Part shown: piece by piece, positions 54,336-63,503 of the stretch
Layout: every line of letters starts with the position of its first letter
Numbering within the stretch: the stretch's first letter is position 1
Origin: Gallionella sp.
Lineage (GTDB): Bacteria > Pseudomonadota > Gammaproteobacteria > Burkholderiales > Gallionellaceae
Reading direction: 5' to 3'
Length of the DNA stretch: 64,000 nt
NCBI GenBank assembly: GCA_028707275.1
Contig: JAQTUP010000001.1
Span: forward strand, 434,001 to 498,000
Notes under the pieces: generated by a model
Database searches by the model: none
Told to the model about the DNA's origin: nothing
What the model saw: only the letters and a program-made list of their open reading frames with translations
Program-made: the position numbers and the translations under genes

Positions 54336-54833
54336 TCAGCAACCAAATAACTTGAGCAGCGCATCTATCGTCGGCTCTTTACTTCTACCGGCCAGCAAGC
54401 TGACTGAGCCGAAATGCAATGCATAGTTATCCCGTTGAGTCGGATCGTTGTTTACAAATGGGGCGAACTGTTTTTTCAGCACATGAGCGTCACCATTTGC
54501 TGACTTTCCGATCAACCGCAACATCATCGCCTCAAGGCAAGGCTCAGATTTGAGTACCTGTATTTTCTTGCTTTTCGCCAGTTTTTCAGTTTTGGCATTC
54601 CAGTCGGTGTCCGTATCGAGCAAGGCGGCAACTGCATCATAATCAGCGTTAGCAATTTGCCGGGCAGTCCAGTCAATGACATGTAATGCTCCCTTACCAC
54701 GGGCATTCTTGATCGTCACCGAAAGCCCGCAGCCACGCGGCACATAAAGCTGTTTGAGATGATTCAGAAACGCCTCTTCGTGGCGTCCTTCGCCGACGAT
54801 CAATAAAGTACGCTGTGCTTTCCAGATAGCCAT
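54336..54833 (-). CDS. Small Toprim-like protein (RloB/AriB-like)
   Basis: 165 residues with a Toprim-type pattern: hydrophobic strand LLIVGEGRHEEAF with Glu15, and the Asp cluster LLDTDTD (Asp73, 75, 77). Toprim nucleases use exactly such a Glu plus DxD metal site. It begins five bases after the stop of a RloA/AriA-like ATPase, so the two form a pair. In related pairs the Toprim partner is the toxic nuclease (PARIS AriB cleaves tRNA; RloB is the restriction-linked version). This one is much shorter than AriB; identity as RloB or AriB is not certain. Confidence 0.75.
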   Translation of the reverse strand: MAIWKAQRTLLIVGEGRHEEAFLNHLKQLYVPRGCGLSVTIKNARGKGALHVIDWTARQIANADYDAVAALLDTDTDWNAKTEKLAKSKKIQVLKSEPCLEAMMLRLIGKSANGDAHVLKKQFAPFVNNDPTQRDNYALHFGSVSLLAGRSKEPTIDALLKLFGC

Positions 54834-54838
54834 GACGA

Positions 54839-56020
54839 TCAGAATACAGGCACAGCGCCATAAGCACCGGCCATGTATTTGGCATAAAAATTATCATCAT
54901 TGCGGATACCTTCCACCGCATCCATGCGACTGGCGGTACTTTCGCAGTCTTGGTTTTTTTGCACCAATATCACCTGCGACTTATGTACCAGATTCAACAC
55001 CTCGATGGCGTGACAGGTAAACAAAAGCTGTGCGTTATGCGGGTTGGTTGAGGGATTTGCGAACAAGTCGAGGATAGGCTCCAGCATGTGCGGATGCAGA
55101 TCGTTCTCGAATTCGTCGATGATCGCCAGGCCGCCAATCTCCAATGTTTGCAACAGCCGCGACAACAGTACGAATGCACCCTGCGTACCGCTTGATTCAA
55201 GCGCAAAAGGCAACTTAAATTCAGCGTTCCTGTTTTTGTGTCTGCCAAACGGCACCCATACTGTCTGGCTGGGTTCCTGTGGATTATTAACGACAAATTC
55301 CTGCAACTCGACGCCGGACAAGCCTAAATCCCATGCGGACAACAAATACTCCATCCGCTCACGTTGATCGGCATGAGCTGAAAAATGTTGCGCGGCCACC
55401 TGAACATCCTGACTGCCAATCGGCATGCGACCCAATACATTGACATTGGTATTCACTTGGGACGCTGTCATGCGCACAGCCAGCGGCACACCAAACTGCG
55501 CCGCCCAGGCAATCAGCGAAACATTTGGGCGCACCTTGCGCGCTTCCTGCGGAGCCAAACCAAAATCCTGCTGTTTGACCACATAGGTCTTGGTTTCTGC
55601 ATCCCAATCCCGAACAAACACATAACCAAACCGTTCGCGTTTTTGGTAAAGCGCTTCATGCAGCACCCGTTCAGGCGTGCAGCGCAACACATAACGCCAC
55701 AGCTTGCCGTCAATATCCAACGTGCACTCCAGCTCACTCGGTTCATTTGTGTGCGCTGCGTGCGGGGCAACAGGAATGCCCGCATCAGGCAGCGTCTGAA
55801 ATGAACTGGTGATGAACCAACTGATAAATGCCATAGGCTTCAGCAGCGCGGTCTTGCCACTGCCATTCGGGCCAATCACCGCCATCAGTTTGGATACCCT
55901 CTCACCGGTCGGCACATCGCTCATCCACTCGGTCATGGCGACCTTGCGGCTGATAGTCAGATCGACTTCGATCCGCTCACGGAAGGACTGGAAGTTTGAG
56001 AATGCATAGCTATGCAGCAC
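54839..56020 (-). CDS. RloA/AriA-like AAA ATPase
   Basis: 393-residue ABC-type ATPase of the AAA_15/RloA class. Walker A GPNGSGKT is at about 50-57, a signature-like ESSGTQG at about 275-281, Walker B LAIIDEFEND at about 298-307, a switch His in LLFTCHAIEVLN, and the family C-terminal KYMAGAYGAVPVF. I start at the GTG at 56020, because AGGTGA is five bases upstream; another GTG three codons earlier is possible. It precedes a Toprim gene, so likely a two-gene defence module (RloAB or PARIS-like). In PARIS the ATPase senses phage anti-restriction proteins such as Ocr, which suits its place beside a type I restriction operon. Function inferred. Confidence 0.85.
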   Translation of the reverse strand: MLHSYAFSNFQSFRERIEVDLTISRKVAMTEWMSDVPTGERVSKLMAVIGPNGSGKTALLKPMAFISWFITSSFQTLPDAGIPVAPHAAHTNEPSELECTLDIDGKLWRYVLRCTPERVLHEALYQKRERFGYVFVRDWDAETKTYVVKQQDFGLAPQEARKVRPNVSLIAWAAQFGVPLAVRMTASQVNTNVNVLGRMPIGSQDVQVAAQHFSAHADQRERMEYLLSAWDLGLSGVELQEFVVNNPQEPSQTVWVPFGRHKNRNAEFKLPFALESSGTQGAFVLLSRLLQTLEIGGLAIIDEFENDLHPHMLEPILDLFANPSTNPHNAQLLFTCHAIEVLNLVHKSQVILVQKNQDCESTASRMDAVEGIRNDDNFYAKYMAGAYGAVPVF

Positions 56021-56031
56021 TATAATCACCT

Positions 56032-56075
56032 TTATTTTGCATTATCAACATAATTTTGTTGGTAATGCAAAATAA
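56032..56075 (-). promoter_or_regulatory. Palindromic operator overlapping the ATPase promoter
   Basis: A long interrupted palindrome: outer arms TTATTTTGCATTA (56032-56044) and TAATGCAAAATAA (56063-56075), inner arms TCAACA / TGTTGG. On the minus strand TTGCAT (56065-56070) and GATAAT (56041-56046) are spaced 18 bases, so -35 and -10 both lie in the arms. A dimeric repressor binding here would block the promoter. Confidence 0.7.
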
Positions 56076-56104: not shown

Positions 56105-56185
56105 TTACTGCCGCTGGCAAAACACCTGAGACAGCAACGCGTCGAAGGCGGATTGCAGTAATTGGATGGGTTCGAACAGCGCGAC
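56105..56185 (-). pseudogene. 3' remnant of a second hsdS gene
   Basis: On the minus strand a 26-codon piece reads VALFEPIQLLQSAFDALLSQ then VFCQRQ and stop, and aligns with the hsdS C-terminus VALIESIQ...ATFDALLSQAFAA, with a short internal deletion. An in-frame TAG lies just upstream, so the piece is dead. It separates the STAS gene from the ATPase gene and marks an old hsdS end. Confidence 0.8.
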
Positions 56186-56348: not shown

Positions 56349-56657
56349 TTAGTGAGAATGAGCCTTGAGGTACTGATCGCAACGATCAGCGGCAACAAAC
56401 TGCAAAATTGCCTTCACATCGTCAGAGCAGGACTTGAATACCAGACGTCCCAAAACATCGGGGCCATGCTGAAGAACCAGCACCCCGACGAGACCGTCGA
56501 TGAATGATTGAGTGGCTTCAATACCGGAGAAATCGAGAACAACCTCTTCGCCTTGAGCCAAGGAGATTTCAATTTTTTCCCTGATGGGAGTTGCACTTAA
56601 CCGAGGGCCGACAAGACGACCGTGAGCGTATGCTTGGAGTAATACAGATGTACGCAT
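56349..56657 (-). CDS. STAS-like (DUF4325-type) domain protein
   Basis: 102 residues with the pattern of the STAS-like DUF4325 family: EVVLDFSGIEATQSFIDGLVGVL is the beta-strand, loop and helix in which STAS antagonists carry the serine or threonine that is phosphorylated (here Thr or Ser in EATQSF). It follows the GHKL ATPase gene by about 44 bases; a GTG start at 56696 would leave only 5 bases. A GHKL ATPase with a STAS partner is the design of anti-sigma/anti-anti-sigma switches. Here the pair is the tail of the hsdM-hsdS operon. Function is inferred. Confidence 0.75.
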   Translation of the reverse strand: MRTSVLLQAYAHGRLVGPRLSATPIREKIEISLAQGEEVVLDFSGIEATQSFIDGLVGVLVLQHGPDVLGRLVFKSCSDDVKAILQFVAADRCDQYLKAHSH

Positions 56658-56701
56658 GATGCTGCAAGAATAACCTAATTGGCAGCGAGTCCACAAGCTG
56701 T

Positions 56702-57664
56702 TTATTCAAAACGAAGGTTAACCGGCGGTATATTGTCCAATGACGGCAGAAGCTCCCGCACGCGTACATCCGCCAGCTTAGTGCGGCTGACTTCCATTGC
56801 AATACCAACTCCCTGCCAGTAAGCATCTGCTTTTTCTCCGCTGTAACCGGTTGTACTGTGCATCGCATTACCACTTGCCAATATCATCCGACCACCAGCA
56901 TGTTCAGCAATTCTGCAAGAGGTAGTCAATCCAACACCCTGATTAACGGAATCAGTAAACAAACCCAAATCGCGATTACAGCTAATGCGCGGGCGTAACG
57001 CCAGAAGAATGGCCTGAAGATGCCGCTTTTGCAGCAGCTCTGAATGCGACTGCAACGATTCCAAGAACCCGCATCCGTTATCAACTACGCCTAAACGAAT
57101 AAGATCTTTTTTAGGGTAATACTGGCTTGCAACCCAGACGCACGCATATTTATTGCCACGCCTTGCATGGGTTAGCGCATTTTCCAACAGCTCATTGAGG
57201 GCGTACTGCAACGGTTCGACCAATCGTTCGTATGGTGTATATCCTGACATTTCGTCAGGTTTTTCATTCGTATCTTCACGGCCAATCATGGCTTTTGCAA
57301 GACGATATGCTGCATCACCCACATCCGCCTGATTGGCTATTTGCGTTAATTCCACCAACTCGCCACTGCGATCACGCCGCGCTCCAGTGTTATGCGCACA
57401 ATCAACCAACTCCACACCATGAAATACATCCATGCGTTGCAAATAGCCACTTAAATTTGCTGAAAGCTGACGAACGACAATAGCGCAACCTTTGTTTCTG
57501 ACTGAATTAAAACATGCTCCCAACATCGCCATACCAAAAGGATCGACATAACGCAATTGCCCGGCATTAATTTCAACGACACCTTCCGAATCCAGAATTT
57601 CCTGGCAGACCGATACCGTTATCAGCGCTGAAGGGGCAGACAGGTAGGCAGGGAAAATGTTCAT
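56702..57664 (-). CDS. GHKL ATPase with N-terminal STAS-like region, coupled to hsdS
   Basis: 320 residues. The N-terminal 100 or so look STAS-like (VVEINAGQLRYVDPFGMAMLGACF), and the rest is a GHKL ATPase or kinase: N box LNELLENALTHA (Asn157, Glu158, Asn162), G1 box VVDNGCGF (Asp195), G2 box NQGVGLTTSCRIAEHAGG (243 onward). No sensor or receiver domain, so it is not a classical histidine kinase. Its ATG overlaps the hsdS stop, so it is cotranslated with hsdS. The next gene is a separate STAS-like protein. The two resemble an RsbW/RsbV-type partner switch, here attached to a restriction system; the signal and target are unknown. Confidence 0.85.
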   Translation of the reverse strand: MNIFPAYLSAPSALITVSVCQEILDSEGVVEINAGQLRYVDPFGMAMLGACFNSVRNKGCAIVVRQLSANLSGYLQRMDVFHGVELVDCAHNTGARRDRSGELVELTQIANQADVGDAAYRLAKAMIGREDTNEKPDEMSGYTPYERLVEPLQYALNELLENALTHARRGNKYACVWVASQYYPKKDLIRLGVVDNGCGFLESLQSHSELLQKRHLQAILLALRPRISCNRDLGLFTDSVNQGVGLTTSCRIAEHAGGRMILASGNAMHSTTGYSGEKADAYWQGVGIAMEVSRTKLADVRVRELLPSLDNIPPVNLRFE

Positions 57665-58824
57665 GCGGCAAACGCCTGAGACAGCAACGCGTCGAAGGTG
57701 GCTTGAGCCGTTGCGGTAGCGGCGGCTTGTTGGGACTGGATAGATTCGATCAACGCTACCTTTTCGTTGAAGGCAATTTGAATGTGAAGTGGCGGCAAAG
57801 GAATTCGAAAGTCTTTCAAACGTTCTGTGTCCAACTTTTTTGTGCCATGAGCTGCTGTGGAAACCAAGCCCAGCAATTGTTGTTGAGAGACCTTCATAAG
57901 CCATAACAAGTAGCCGACTGTGATCTCTGAAACCGGAAACAGTGCCTTCATATCTTGGTTGATAGTGTGCTCAACCAATGACTGGGCAACAGGCACAGTA
58001 TGTACAAGAATCATTCCTCTGACCACAATGAGAAGTGAACCAATTGGCACCAGCTTTATGTTTGTTTCAGCAAGGACTTTGCGGCTGACATGATCAATGG
58101 CATTGACAATGTACACCTGCTTCATATCCTTTGGGCTTACCCATGGCAGGTCGCCCTGCCAGAAATCTTCCCTTGATTTCGATGGAGTTCCTCCACTCAT
58201 GAAGGACACGAGGTCTTGCAGCAGACGAACCGGCCATCCCTTCGGATTCGTCGCCGGATCACCGAACATATCGAGAAACAGTGCAGGAATGAGCTCGGCA
58301 GCTTTTTTCTCGGCCTCGCGCCGCAATTTTACGATGCCATCGGCGCGGGACAGAATATCCACGATGCGGCGTTGCTCTACGAGTGAAGGCAGTGGAACAT
58401 CAAGGTCTTTTAGTATTCTTTGATTGATATTTGGTTGAGCCACTCCACGAGCCAGACGATTTAACTCACCATGCTGAGAATCCAAAAAATATTTCAGATA
58501 CTGCGAATCGAGTTGAGCATTGTCCTTCGGAACAACCCCTGCTATTGCCTGATTAGTTGCAGCTTCAATTCCAAGAACGGCAGTACGCCCGATGGTGGCA
58601 AAAATTGAAATTAACACTGTACCCAATGGCATCAGTTTGGCGCTACTGTTTTTAATACCGGCCTCTGTAAGGGATTCATCTGTTAAAAGCACTGTTCCTT
58701 GAAGCATGTCAGTGATTTTCACCCATGAAATTCCGCCACCGAAGTATTCCAACTTTGTTCGTGATGGTGTTCCACCGGTAAGAATTTGGCAGACCTCGCC
58801 TAACTTACGGCCAAGATTCGTCAT
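57661..58824 (-). CDS. hsdS: Type I restriction-modification specificity subunit
   Basis: Reads the DNA target for the methylase and restriction complex. Two target-recognition domains, each opening with a GGTPS motif (QILTGGTPSRTKLEYFGG at 14-31 and SFMSGGTPSKSREDFWQG in the second half), each followed by a conserved helix (VEQRRIVDILSRADGIVKL and the C-terminal LIESIQSQQAAATATAQATF). 387 residues. The ATG overlaps the hsdM stop and the stop overlaps the ATPase start. Recognition sequence not predictable from here. Confidence 0.96.
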   Translation of the reverse strand: MTNLGRKLGEVCQILTGGTPSRTKLEYFGGGISWVKITDMLQGTVLLTDESLTEAGIKNSSAKLMPLGTVLISIFATIGRTAVLGIEAATNQAIAGVVPKDNAQLDSQYLKYFLDSQHGELNRLARGVAQPNINQRILKDLDVPLPSLVEQRRIVDILSRADGIVKLRREAEKKAAELIPALFLDMFGDPATNPKGWPVRLLQDLVSFMSGGTPSKSREDFWQGDLPWVSPKDMKQVYIVNAIDHVSRKVLAETNIKLVPIGSLLIVVRGMILVHTVPVAQSLVEHTINQDMKALFPVSEITVGYLLWLMKVSQQQLLGLVSTAAHGTKKLDTERLKDFRIPLPPLHIQIAFNEKVALIESIQSQQAAATATAQATFDALLSQAFAA

Positions 58825-60659
58825 GCAGATAGCTCCGCCAATACAGCCCTCAAAGCTTCCACTTCCGCTGCAATTTCCACTTCAATGGCTGCCAGCTCAT
58901 CCAGTAACTCGCGCGGATCGCGATGTATTGCTGCCGTCTGACTCATCGGGCGGTAACGTCCGGCAGAAAGATTGAAGTCGTTGCTGCGAATTTCAGCTGC
59001 GGTGGCAAACCACCATTTGTGCGGCCATTCACCACCCCCACCCCGTCCCTCCCCCGTCGAGGGGGAGGGGGTATCGGCGTCTTCCCCCGCCTGCCTGTCG
59101 GCAGACATGGCGAGTGTGGAAGGGGTAGACCACTCTGCCCATTTCTCTTTACGATGCAGGTAGGTATCCGCCAGCATCGGCAAGTCGTCCGCCGCAATGG
59201 GCGTGTCGTGATTGGCATCCATTTTATAGCCATCATTATCGGCATGCAGGAACAGAACCTTGTCGGTCGTGCCGCCCTTGCGGAAGAACAGCACGGAAGT
59301 CTTTACGCCGGAATACGGCTGGAACACGCCGCCCGGCAGTGACAATACGGCCTCGACCGTGTTGTTCTCAATCAGTTGGCGACGCAATTCCTTGTGTGCG
59401 CCGGTCGAGCCGAACAACACGCCTTCGGGAATGATGACACCGCATCTGCCACCACCCCCACCCTTGCCCTCCCCCGTCAAGGGGGAGGGAATCAATGATT
59501 TGCCCTCACCCGTCGAGAGGGAGGGAGTTTTCGCTCCTTCCCCACTTTGCGCAGGGGGAGAGCGTAGCGAGGGGGATCTGGGATGAGGGGCTCTGAGACA
59601 ATCCATCATGTATTTCAGGAACAGGATTTCGGTAGAGGTGCTGGTGCCGACCTTCACTTCATCCACGATGCGGTCTTTGTCCACGCGACCGGAGAAAGGC
59701 GGATTAGCCAGCACGACGTGATAGCCTTCCAGCGGCAAACCCAACTCGGCTTTGCGTTCATTGTCCTGTGTAGTGGTCAAGCCGTTACGCAGCTGGATAC
59801 GCACATTGGGCAGGCCGCGCAGCGTCAGGTTCATCGTGGCTAAGCGCACCATCTTGGGATCAACGTCGTTGCCGTAGAAAGTGCTGTTTTGCAGCACGGA
59901 GACTTGTGCCGACGAGAGTTTGTCACCGATACCACGCTTTTGCAGTTTGCCATCTGATTCCGCGTCGCTGATCCCACTGGGCGATGAGTTGGCAAGACGA
60001 ATGTGGTTGTAGGCTGCTGCCAGAAAGCCTGCCGTACCCGCTGCCGGATCGTAAATGGTTTCGCCGATTTTGGGGTCGAGCATATCCACGATGGCGCGAA
60101 TCACATGGCGCGGCGTGCGAAACTGACCGAGTTCACCCGCCTGTTTAATCTGACGCAGCACATGTTCGAACAAGTCACCCTTGGTGTCGGCATCAGCTTG
60201 ATCCAGACGCAGGCCATCCACCAGATTGACCACCTGAGTCAGTACCGTAGGTTCGTCGATAGTGAGACGCGCACCATTCATGAAGTTGAAGGCGGAACGC
60301 TCGGCCACTTCGGCAAAGAACGGGAATACCTCGTCGCGCACGAAGCGCACCAGTGATTCGCCGCTCAAGCCTTTCGCCCATACCGACCACTTGAAGCGGG
60401 ATTTAGCGATGGTTTTGATGCCGGTTTCCGGGGCATTGAGCGGATTACGCAACGTCCATTCACCCGCGAACAGCGACTCATATGGCGACTTCATCACCTT
60501 GGCCTTCATGGTGTTTTCAGCGTCGATACCTTCGATGAGATAGAAGAAGAACAGGAAAGACAGTTGCTCGGCATTGCTCATCGGATCCGGATAGCCGCCA
60601 CCGTAAAGGTAGTTGCGTATCTGGTCGATGGACTGGCGCATTTCTGGGGTTAATGACAT
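58821..60659 (-). CDS. hsdM: Type I restriction-modification DNA adenine methylase
   Basis: N6-adenine methyltransferase subunit. The helical N-terminal domain (MSLTPEMRQSIDQIRNYLYG) is followed by the SAM motif DPAAGTAGFLAAA at 204-216 and catalytic NPPF at 319-322. I start at the ATG at 60659, which has AGGAACGAC before it. At 612 residues it exceeds typical HsdM, because of two in-frame low-complexity inserts (about 356-405 and 515-545; Pro/Gly/Ser-rich with TGEG repeats) encoded by GC-rich palindromes. Both follow the catalytic NPPF motif, so the enzyme may still work. Cotranslated with hsdS. Confidence 0.95.
   Translation of the reverse strand: MSLTPEMRQSIDQIRNYLYGGGYPDPMSNAEQLSFLFFFYLIEGIDAENTMKAKVMKSPYESLFAGEWTLRNPLNAPETGIKTIAKSRFKWSVWAKGLSGESLVRFVRDEVFPFFAEVAERSAFNFMNGARLTIDEPTVLTQVVNLVDGLRLDQADADTKGDLFEHVLRQIKQAGELGQFRTPRHVIRAIVDMLDPKIGETIYDPAAGTAGFLAAAYNHIRLANSSPSGISDAESDGKLQKRGIGDKLSSAQVSVLQNSTFYGNDVDPKMVRLATMNLTLRGLPNVRIQLRNGLTTTQDNERKAELGLPLEGYHVVLANPPFSGRVDKDRIVDEVKVGTSTSTEILFLKYMMDCLRAPHPRSPSLRSPPAQSGEGAKTPSLSTGEGKSLIPSPLTGEGKGGGGGRCGVIIPEGVLFGSTGAHKELRRQLIENNTVEAVLSLPGGVFQPYSGVKTSVLFFRKGGTTDKVLFLHADNDGYKMDANHDTPIAADDLPMLADTYLHRKEKWAEWSTPSTLAMSADRQAGEDADTPSPSTGEGRGGGGEWPHKWWFATAAEIRSNDFNLSAGRYRPMSQTAAIHRDPRELLDELAAIEVEIAAEVEALRAVLAELSA
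59030..59130. repeat. GC-rich palindromic insert in hsdM (C-terminal)
   Basis: CCCTCCCCC/GGGGGAGGG at 59047-59069, then a smaller CCTGCCTGTCGGCAGACATGG palindrome-like unit at about 59090-59112. It encodes a Gly/Ser/Pro/Thr-rich stretch. Confidence 0.85.
59445..59595. repeat. GC-rich palindromic insert in hsdM (after the NPPF motif)
   Basis: Two palindromes of the CCCTCCCCCGTCAAGGGGGA type at 59467-59489 and 59503-59525, followed by a GGGGGAGAGCGTAGCGAGGGG unit (59548-59572) shared with nnrD. It encodes about 50 residues. Confidence 0.85.
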
Positions 60660-60951
60660 GTCGTTCCTGTTTATTGTTTTAATGGGGATTTTTACCACAC
60701 CCACCCTAACCTTCCCCCGTCAAGGGGGAGGGAATATTGTAGTTTGCCTCCCCCGTCAAGCGGGAGGGGATTATCGTTTTTCCTCCCACGTCAAGGGAAG
60801 GGAATATTGTAGTTTGCCCCCCGTCGAAGGGGAATATCGTAGTTTGCCTCCCCCTTCGAAGGGGGAATATTGTAGTTTGCCTCCCCCGTCGAAGGGAGAA
60901 TATTGCAGTTTGCCTCCCCCGTCGAAGTGGGATGGAGTCCTTAACCTTGAA
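60660..60951. repeat. Tandem array of palindromes in the hsdM leader
   Basis: Seven GC-rich palindromes of the type CCTCCCCCGTCGAAGGGGGA (at 60711, 60747, 60782, 60817, 60847, 60881 and 60913), with most separated by the same 14-base spacer AATATTGTAGTTTG, a period of about 30-36 bases. A further copy (60962-60984) is inside the end of the DUF559 gene. Spacers are conserved, so it is not a CRISPR. Lying between DUF559 and hsdM, it could weaken or pause operon transcription. Confidence 0.88.
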
Positions 60952-61320
60952 TCACTCCACTCCTTCCCCCTTGACGGGGGAAGGTAGGGATGGGGGTGCG
61001 GATGTCAACGCTCGCAAAATATCCGCCAGCACCTCATCCACTTCATTCAGTACCTGGTTATTCCAGTAACGCAGCACGCGAAAATTTTGTGCTGTCAGCC
61101 AGGCATCGCGCTTTACATCACCATATTCTTCGTCCGCATGTTGCCCGCCATCCACTTCGACAATCAGACGCGCCTCCAGACAAACAAAATCCACGATGTA
61201 ACACCCCAGCGGAAATTGGCGACGAAATTTGTGTCCATTCATCTGTCGCAGCCGTAAACCACGCCAGAGCTTGCGTTCCGCATCCGTCATGGATTTGCGC
61301 AGTTCCCGCGCAGCGCTCAT
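60952..61320 (-). CDS. DUF559 endonuclease-like protein
   Basis: 122 residues of the DUF559 family, a Vsr/PD-(D/E)XK-like nuclease fold: LRKSMTDAERKLWRGLR, then HKFRRQFPLGCYIVDFVCLEARLIVEVDGGQHA with the catalytic Asp and Glu, and FRVLRYWNNQVL. Its ATG overlaps the hsdR stop, so it is part of the restriction operon. The last 15 residues (SAPPSLPSPVKGEGVE) come from a palindromic repeat that supplies the stop codon. The role beside hsdR is unknown. Confidence 0.9.
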   Translation of the reverse strand: MSAARELRKSMTDAERKLWRGLRLRQMNGHKFRRQFPLGCYIVDFVCLEARLIVEVDGGQHADEEYGDVKRDAWLTAQNFRVLRYWNNQVLNEVDEVLADILRALTSAPPSLPSPVKGEGVE

Positions 61321-63485
61321 TGCCGCAGTCCGATTCCTTTCGACACAGAAGAAATCCCGTCTTCATCTTCATGAAATACATGTGCGTTGAGGCTTTCCAT
61401 TACTTCATCCAGTTGCGCCTTGCCGCCGAAGACGCGTAACGCATTCTGGTATCCGCCTTGTGAACTGAAAATCGGCAGCGCAAAATGGTCGCTGGTGAAT
61501 TCATCCCATGTTTCGGCGTTGGCACGTATCTGGCTGCCGACCACACGCAACAGGTTTTCTTGTGCCGGATTGATGTCCCTTCGACCTTGCTCAGGACAGG
61601 CTTGCCGCGACAGCAACCAAGCCTCGAAGCGCGCGCCTAATTCGCAGGCTTTCAGCTCGGAGGCTTCCGGGAATACCATGTTGCCGTCCTCATCTACCGT
61701 GACCCATTCGCGGGTGGCTGGGTCGATTTGATCGTCAACGTCAAGCGACAGCAGGCGGCGAGGTTCATAAGGTTTTTTGGGCGGCTGTTTGGCCACCATG
61801 ATTCCGCCTTGCGCGTAAACATCGTCGTCGCCGTGGTAGTCAGCAACGCCGACAAAGTCGAACATGGTAAACACCGGCTTATTCTGCGCCTTGCGTGTGC
61901 CGCGTCCGCGCATCTGTTGATACAGCGTGACGGACTTGGTGAAACGAGCAAACACCAGATTGGTGACTTCCGGGCAATCAAAGCCGGTATCCAGCATGTT
62001 TACCGACACCAGTATTTGCGGGAACGGCTCTTTCTTGAATCGTTTGATCCTGCTCATCGCATCCACGGTGTCGTCCTGCCCCATGCCTGACACCACATAA
62101 TCAGCATAGCGCACATTCGGCGACGACTTCTTGTCGGCAAAGGCCTCGTCAAACATCTGGGCCAGCGTTTCGGCATGGCGTTTAGTAACGGCAAATACGA
62201 TGGTTTTTCCCAGCAGTGGTTTGCGCTGAATGCCCTTGTGGTCGATGTAGCCGTTATCCATCACCTGCCTGAACTCACGCACCAATGCGCGGTTGCGTTC
62301 CGGGATGGTGAAGCGCCGCTCCAGCGCATTCGGGTCGATCATCACCGAATCGGATTCCTTGAACAGCACCTCAAATTCCTGCCGAGTTTTGGTATCCATT
62401 GCCGACCAGTCGAGTTCAGTGCGTTTGACCTCGAAGCCACCTTCAGCAGCGGTTTTTACGGTCTTGGCCTTGTAAATCTGGTACGGCACGAGATAACCCT
62501 CTTTGATCGCATCTTTCATCTTGTAGCTGAAAGTGGGTTTGTCTACCTCAAAGAAACGCATCGTGTCGCGCACGAATAGCTTGTCATCCTCATTCCCGGT
62601 TGTCGCATCATCACCACTGACGCAAGGCGTGGCAGTGAGGCCGAACTGTATGCCGTCAAAATGTTTGAGTACGCCGCTCCACTTGCCGTAGATGCTGCGG
62701 TGGCATTCGTCCGAGATAATCAGATCGAAATATCCGGCAGAGTATTCGCCGTAAATATTGACCATGCTTTGCAGCGTGGTGATGGTGATGCGTTTTTCAT
62801 CCTGAAAACGACGACCAGCACGCAGTACATAAGACGGGTAATCCGGCAGATTTTCGGCGAAAGCATCTTCGGTCTGTATGGCCAGCGGGATGCGATCCAC
62901 CAGAAACAGCACGCGGGTAATAGCATTGGCCTCGAACAATCGCTTAATGAGCGCTGCGGCAGTGCGCGTTTTTCCAGTACCGGTTGCCATTTCTACCAGC
63001 AACTTGCGACGCCCTTGCTCAATCTCCTGGCACAAGGTCTGGATGCAACCTTGCTGGTAATCACGACCGGCAATCTTTACATCAATGGGAACGGACAGCG
63101 GCTTGCGTGCAACTTGCAGCGTGGCAAATCGACGCTCAAGATCATCCTGCTTGAAGAAGGTTTTGACGGGACGCGGATAGGCTTCACGCTGCCATTCCCA
63201 GAACTGAATCTCATTACCGTTAGCGAGAAAAATGTAAGGAACTTTGAGTTGCCTGGCGTAATTCTTCGCTTGCTCGGTAGCATCACCGGGACTGAATGAA
63301 AAGCGCTTGGCTTCAATCACGGCAATCGAGCGACCATGACGATCACACAGCACATAGTCGGCGCGCGTGCCGTCCGGCATGAGGACTTCAAAACGGACAT
63401 TAAAACCATCGGCAAGACTCCAGCCCTGCGCAGCAAGCTGGCTGTCGATGATGACGCGTGAGAAGGCTTCGTTGGTGGATTTCAT
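61317..63485 (-). CDS. hsdR: Type I restriction enzyme R subunit
   Basis: The DNA-translocating nuclease subunit. An N-terminal PD-(D/E)XK nuclease (Asp43 in TRADYVL, Glu58 and Lys60 in VIEAKR), helicase motif I ATGTGKT at 167-173, motif II DECH at 259-262, and motif VI QQMRGRGTRK. The C-terminal domain matches the EcoEI-type HsdR end. 722 residues is right for that short class. Start is the ATG at 63485; a GTG six codons earlier is also in frame. A roughly 12-residue insert at about 625-637 (SRQACPEQGRRD) is encoded by a REP-like palindrome. Motifs are intact. Confidence 0.95.
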   Translation of the reverse strand: MKSTNEAFSRVIIDSQLAAQGWSLADGFNVRFEVLMPDGTRADYVLCDRHGRSIAVIEAKRFSFSPGDATEQAKNYARQLKVPYIFLANGNEIQFWEWQREAYPRPVKTFFKQDDLERRFATLQVARKPLSVPIDVKIAGRDYQQGCIQTLCQEIEQGRRKLLVEMATGTGKTRTAAALIKRLFEANAITRVLFLVDRIPLAIQTEDAFAENLPDYPSYVLRAGRRFQDEKRITITTLQSMVNIYGEYSAGYFDLIISDECHRSIYGKWSGVLKHFDGIQFGLTATPCVSGDDATTGNEDDKLFVRDTMRFFEVDKPTFSYKMKDAIKEGYLVPYQIYKAKTVKTAAEGGFEVKRTELDWSAMDTKTRQEFEVLFKESDSVMIDPNALERRFTIPERNRALVREFRQVMDNGYIDHKGIQRKPLLGKTIVFAVTKRHAETLAQMFDEAFADKKSSPNVRYADYVVSGMGQDDTVDAMSRIKRFKKEPFPQILVSVNMLDTGFDCPEVTNLVFARFTKSVTLYQQMRGRGTRKAQNKPVFTMFDFVGVADYHGDDDVYAQGGIMVAKQPPKKPYEPRRLLSLDVDDQIDPATREWVTVDEDGNMVFPEASELKACELGARFEAWLLSRQACPEQGRRDINPAQENLLRVVGSQIRANAETWDEFTSDHFALPIFSSQGGYQNALRVFGGKAQLDEVMESLNAHVFHEDEDGISSVSKGIGLRQ
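61576..61612. repeat. REP-like palindrome inserted in frame in hsdR
   Basis: CCTTCGACCTTGCTCAGGAC then AGGCTTGCCGCGA. Same TTCGAC...GCTCAGG core as the hairpins at 6603 and 8970. It encodes about 12 residues in the C-terminal domain. Confidence 0.75.
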
Positions 63486-63503
63486 GGGTTGAGAGGTTAG
63501 CAC

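Follow-up and report, generated by a model that had tools for sequence, protein, structure and literature searches.

Two characterised systems pair a STAS-GHKL kinase with a STAS substrate, and both are described in a 2026 paper (PMC13373217). CapK, built as helix-turn-helix (HTH)-STAS-GHKL, is a kinase activated by single-stranded DNA (ssDNA), and CapS, a STAS-winged helix-turn-helix (wHTH) protein, is its repressor substrate; 88 of 443 capKS pairs lie directly downstream of restriction-modification (R-M) systems, some loci have the order R-M system, capKS, immune operon, and the immune operon downstream of capKS has palindromic operators. In VapKSC a kinase without an HTH acts on the STAS antitoxin of a PIN toxin, and the VapS tail that blocks the toxin extends to residue 116. 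Both kinase-STAS pairs convert DNA damage into an immune output (PMC13373217). We analysed 64,000 nucleotides (nt) of Gallionella sp. (contig JAQTUP010000001.1, positions 434,001 to 498,000; hereafter the window), in which a kinase-like gene (K) and a STAS-like gene (S) follow hsdS of a type I restriction operon. A first-pass annotation of this DNA knew of no characterised system of this form, a view that CapKS and VapKSC (PMC13373217) do not support. The three genes, in window coordinates, are as follows.

57661..58824, minus strand: hsdS, type I specificity subunit (Methylase_S)
56702..57664, minus strand: K, STAS-GHKL putative serine/threonine protein kinase, 320 amino acids (aa) (predicted fold, conserved boxes)
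56349..56657, minus strand: S, DUF4325 STAS-like putative substrate, 102 aa (Pfam, predicted fold, alignment)

The hsdS stop and the K start codon overlap as ATGA and the STAS-like gene comes next, just as first described. The pair was compared across 25 distinct loci. A scan of genome contigs gave 29 loci, from which L056 was dropped (a 49-residue match in a 600-aa open reading frame, and not a relative) and L040-L043 and L052 were counted as copies of L039; the window and a pair on two near-identical Pseudomonas plasmids, counted once, were added.

K and S as a predicted kinase-substrate pair

K begins at a STAS domain of its own, without an N-terminal HTH (Pfam and predicted fold), and is predicted to fold as a GHKL kinase, with the N and G boxes in place. 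The folds nearest to the model were SpoIIAB and then RsbW, at 16-21% identity in the fold alignments, so that both the GHKL fold and the STAS-like N-terminus expected at first reading were borne out. GHKL proteins of MutL/MORC type also occur in R-M systems, and that identity for K is not favoured because SpoIIAB was clearly the nearest fold. E158, N162 and H166 were present in all 22 rows of the K alignment, which, like the K tree, excludes L038, L044 and L051. The C-terminal tail carries a conserved L-x-F (56705-56716; F319 in 21 of 22 rows), a possible docking motif for a partner protein; residues 316-320 were modelled at low confidence.

S has one STAS-like domain only over its 102 aa and no wHTH (Pfam and predicted fold). 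Within its T49-Q50-S51 motif (Ser51 codon at about 56505-56507), T49 was found in 25 of 25 rows and S51 in 24, and Ser51 lined up gap-free in a profile alignment with the RsbS serine, which we take to be Ser59. Ser51 is accordingly the predicted phospho-acceptor, with Thr49 as the alternative, and we infer that S is the substrate of K. Even in relatives at about 30% identity the catalytic and acceptor residues hardly vary, indicating a function under selection. A search of NCBIfam up to E 0.1 assigned neither K nor S to a family.

The S profile found Escherichia VapS (9z7o; E 2.7e-4), the sole solved relative below E 0.01. With a stretch of VapS as query, a vapKSC-like operon was found on a Deinococcus plasmid, and its kinase aligned with K across both domains (hhalign E 6.5e-12). 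Because of the VapS match and the alignments with the Deinococcus kinase and STAS protein, K-S is placed, on sequence grounds, in the same broad kind as VapK/VapS, without VapC and without a wHTH. VapKSC resembles it in gene content (a STAS-GHKL kinase lacking an HTH, then a small STAS protein that has a conserved Ser/Thr), in homology to K over both domains and to S, and in its anti-phage context. The window pair differs in that it has no adjacent VapC/PIN toxin, the next genes being AAA_21 and RloB, and in that S is shorter than VapS; no PIN domain was seen at the other loci among the part of the neighbours scanned with Pfam. CapKS is similar in combining a GHKL kinase with a STAS substrate and in sometimes lying directly downstream of R-M genes, whereas K has no HTH and the window pair is joined to hsdS by the start-stop overlap. 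Lacking a wHTH, S cannot be a CapS-type repressor. K and S also match positions 33-271 and 313-393 of the 1750 in the PADLOC model PDLC02567 (DrmA of DISARM). The model suggests that members exist with the K-S region joined to a helicase, but no helicase accompanies the window pair, and no match spanning both parts was found in the 200 genomes searched.

At a probability of roughly 0.6, we consider K-S to be a VapK/VapS-type kinase-substrate module whose output is a partner encoded elsewhere and not HsdS. Sequence and models point to K as a STAS-GHKL protein with a SpoIIAB-like fold, to S as STAS-like, its conserved Ser51 lying in the RsbS/VapS phospho-acceptor region, and to genes that travel together; the STAS-like partner and the partner-switch type proposed at first were thereby supported. 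The most likely output is some protein whose gene lies elsewhere in the genome, since the pair has no DNA-binding domain and no constant third gene, and its restriction neighbours are varied or absent. S when unphosphorylated would hold the partner protein. K, plausibly activated by ssDNA by analogy with CapK, would phosphorylate S, which would then release the partner. Restriction cleavage of phage DNA could generate the signal for K, and in the window the pair is probably co-produced with the restriction enzyme because it fills the place for accessory genes behind hsdS and its first codon overlaps the hsdS stop.

Several results weigh against placing K-S with VapK/VapS in this way. The Deinococcus STAS protein aligned with S at hhalign E 1.5e-4 and a probability of only 51.4, and the S profile did not retrieve Deinococcus VapS at E 0.01. 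The VapS serine faces Q50 of S in both VapS alignments, one residue off, and this is why Thr49 is kept as a possible acceptor beside Ser51. K position 39 is aromatic in 20 of 21 rows and faces a Trp of the Deinococcus kinase; this suggests ssDNA binding only weakly, because an aromatic there is a common STAS feature. K is damaged by frameshift or deletion in 4 of the 25 loci (L037, L038, L050 and L051), some of these perhaps being assembly errors. For four of 11 more distant K relatives (L017, L018, L025 and L027) no S was found in the fetched stretch, so S need not accompany every K-like protein. No effector was identified for the pair.

Genomic contexts of the pair

S lay downstream of K on the same strand in 24 of the 25 loci, the remaining one (L044) being cut by the contig end. 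Absence of a neighbour was judged from open reading frame lists, blastp against the window Hsd proteins and Pfam of chosen neighbours; less than 1 kb upstream was available at L034 and nothing downstream at L044. The pair was directly downstream of restriction genes at eight loci. It overlapped an intact hsdS at three of these (window, L028, L032) and an hsdS remnant, read by eye, at two (L030, L050). At L033 it stood 232 nt behind an HsdM-HsdS-HsdR operon, where a short fragment before K was read as DUF262 by eye and Pfam gave nothing for its 38 residues. C5-methylase, AAA and PDDEXK_7 genes preceded it at L031, and HsdR and YgjP genes at L037, where K has no STAS domain. HsdR/HsdM genes were downstream of the pair at one locus (L036), and the Pseudomonas plasmid pair adjoined a divergent adenine methylase. 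At the other 15 loci none of the adjacent genes seen was a recognised R-M gene, and several pairs were beside housekeeping genes; one of the 15 (L038) has an HNH endonuclease gene alongside on the other strand. Strict linkage to hsdS was rejected on account of these 15. The linkage first expected in other genomes thus recurred at L028 and L032, and with a remnant at L030 and L050, but failed at most loci, and the pair is not a regularly hsdS-linked R-M subunit. No third conserved gene was recognised, the gene after S often being on the opposite strand.

A K tree was built from 22 K rows plus one outgroup, and 8 of its 21 labelled rows had restriction genes upstream. This label needed 4 changes, a value reached in 7 of 500 shuffles (shuffle mean 6.6), indicating a somewhat clustered trait, mostly in beta-type lineages. 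K was present in 4 of 120 genomes of the window's family, and all four pairs (window, L028, L031, L037) were behind restriction genes.

A restriction operon with its own break sensor, in which K, made with HsdRMS, would sense ssDNA from HsdR cuts in invading DNA and, via S, alter the restriction complex or a second defence arm encoded elsewhere, is possible but doubtful. S might bind the restriction complex and restrain or license it, and break-sensing K would phosphorylate S and so switch restriction on or off; the operon would then contain its own means of relieving restriction post-translationally. The start-stop overlaps with hsdS and the eight pairs directly behind restriction genes speak for such control, and since Methylase_S matches at only 4 places in the window genome, the adjacency looks far above chance by a rough estimate that has no control set. 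However, DUF4325 matches just once in that genome, so its three other Methylase_S loci are without the pair, and the HsdM relatives in 369 genomes (3 of 3) had no K match at E 1e-10, other genes following their hsdS. Regulation of restriction itself, as proposed in the first-pass annotation, also fits poorly with contexts that differ in kind. A specific HsdS/HsdM partner is unlikely because the neighbours are type I genes, C5-methylase/AAA/PDDEXK_7, HsdR-YgjP or no R-M genes, and direct control of restriction by the pair is possible but disfavoured for the same variety; in the form with S on the restriction complex we regard it as unlikely.

Among the 11 distant relatives outside the 25 loci, S was adjacent in two (L006, L026) and in the same open frame as K in five (L019-L023). 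L006 is Marinitoga phage MPV1, where the distant GHKL-STAS pair has a DNA methyltransferase nearby and is placed after an annotated chromosome segregation ATPase and ahead of a serine recombinase; a viral home was nevertheless rejected, as a pattern scan of viral contigs gave no close relative. The S-less STAS-GHKL proteins of L017 and L018 are beside genes read as type III mod/res and a gene read as a DEAD-box helicase, respectively. In two Pseudomonas genomes (L045, L049) the pair adjoins convergent IMS-family (UmuC-like) polymerase genes, perhaps merely an insertion hot spot.

Neighbouring genes and possible traces of movement

The other features around the pair are listed below.

61317..63503, minus strand: hsdR (HSDR_N_2, ResIII, EcoEI_R_C)
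60952..61320, minus strand: DUF559 gene between hsdR and hsdM (PF04480)
58821..60704, minus strand: hsdM, carrying two in-frame insertions (N6_Mtase)
56120..56155, minus strand: remnant resembling the hsdS 3' end, 36 nt, downstream of S (92% identity to 57670-57705)
56032..56075, no strand: palindrome with 22-nt arms, ahead of the AAA gene
54839..56029, minus strand: AAA_21 ATPase, AbiLi-like, next gene downstream of S
54336..54833, minus strand: RloB/AbiLii-like partner of the AAA gene (RloB 31.1 bits, just below the cut-off of 31.5)

The type I set is complete, with hsdR, hsdM and hsdS in the expected order (Pfam). The hsdM insertions, of about 45 and about 26 residues, are absent from the 3 or 4 relatives covering the place and coincide with repeat copies; the 24-nt palindrome pattern had 8 copies in the genome against 0 for a reversed control.

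The 36-nt remnant reads LLQSAFDALLSQVFCQRQ-stop and probably marks a past recombination event in the hsdS tail. Together with the hsdS remnants directly after which K starts in L030 and L050, it suggests that hsdS 3' ends either carry the pair along or receive it. Distances of K and S were correlated (Mantel r 0.91, without L037 and L050), as expected for movement as a unit. GHKL and DUF4325 were also found fused in single proteins, at L037:13986-14993 and in L019-L023 (L022 by Pfam); the former is an HTH-GHKL-DUF4325 protein shortly after AAA-RloB in the same locus as the L037 pair.

Both the window and L037 have AAA-RloB genes following the pair, their AAA proteins being 82.8% identical, and at L047 an AAA_21 gene was ahead of it. 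Three other AAA relatives were found in 369 genomes, L061 and L063 with RloB and L062 without, and their genomes had no K match at E 1e-10. A scripted scan found palindromes before the AAA gene in the pair-less L062 and L063, but at its threshold it gave none for L061 or for the pair-bearing L037. Since two of three pair-less relatives have a palindrome and L037 has none, the one at 56032..56075 probably belongs to the AAA unit and not to the pair. The AAA gene itself is probably a separate unit. As an operator for S the palindrome was rejected, because S has no DNA-binding domain and palindromes occur in those pair-less relatives. At L063 a gene resembling a reverse transcriptase (RVT_1 at 23.3 bits, under the 29.6 cut-off) lies a few kb away from the AAA-RloB relative. 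The rlo genes are accessory genes of type I R-M loci. The window resembles these in having extra genes within and after hsdRMS, with AAA and RloB homologues downstream, but K and S match no R-M accessory family.

In a CapKS-like arrangement, the pair could couple the restriction operon on its upstream side to the abortive-infection-like AAA-RloB genes that follow, acting through repression at the palindrome or through an S that keeps the AAA or RloB protein inactive. The window order equals that of the R-M, capKS, immune-operon loci (PMC13373217), the AAA-type genes recur near the pair at L037 and L047, and the palindrome stands at the AAA start. Such coupling is improbable given a 102-aa S without a wHTH, the palindrome and K distributions above, 22 of 25 loci without an AAA_21 gene of this type seen beside the pair, and the hsdS-like scar that separates the pair from the AAA unit; the order of restriction, pair and second defence also misfits most of the 25 loci.

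A classical partner switch, with K as anti-sigma factor, S as antagonist and a sigma factor as output, deserves similarly little credence. The SpoIIAB and RsbW folds and the RsbS-like serine agree with it, as does a distant pair on an Alicyclobacillus plasmid behind an annotated sigma-factor-like helix-turn-helix gene. Unlike SpoIIAB/SpoIIAA, RsbW/RsbV and RsbT/RsbS, however, K bears a STAS domain, no sigma-factor domain was seen among the part of the neighbours of the 25 loci scanned with Pfam, and in sequence the nearest relatives, solved or compared, belong with VapK/VapS. If the pair were a passenger, inserting behind other operons and functionally unlinked to restriction, this would account for the scattered contexts (15 of 25), the remnants of genes where K begins in L030 and L050 and the damaged K in four loci, but the near-invariant residues and a share of 8 of 25 behind restriction genes that exceeds a rough expectation make a mere passenger very improbable.

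Implications for restriction-linked defence

The pair is real and conserved, and it is less surprising than first thought because relatives have already been characterised. Full-text literature searches gave PMC13373217 as the one relevant paper and found no description of an output-less kinase-STAS module within a type I operon. The pair is a conserved, apparently mobile kinase-STAS version without an output part, sometimes codon-overlapped with restriction genes. If K-S answers to cleavage products, first-line restriction would be linked to a later response, and a search for the partner could reveal a new effector or direct phospho-control of restriction.
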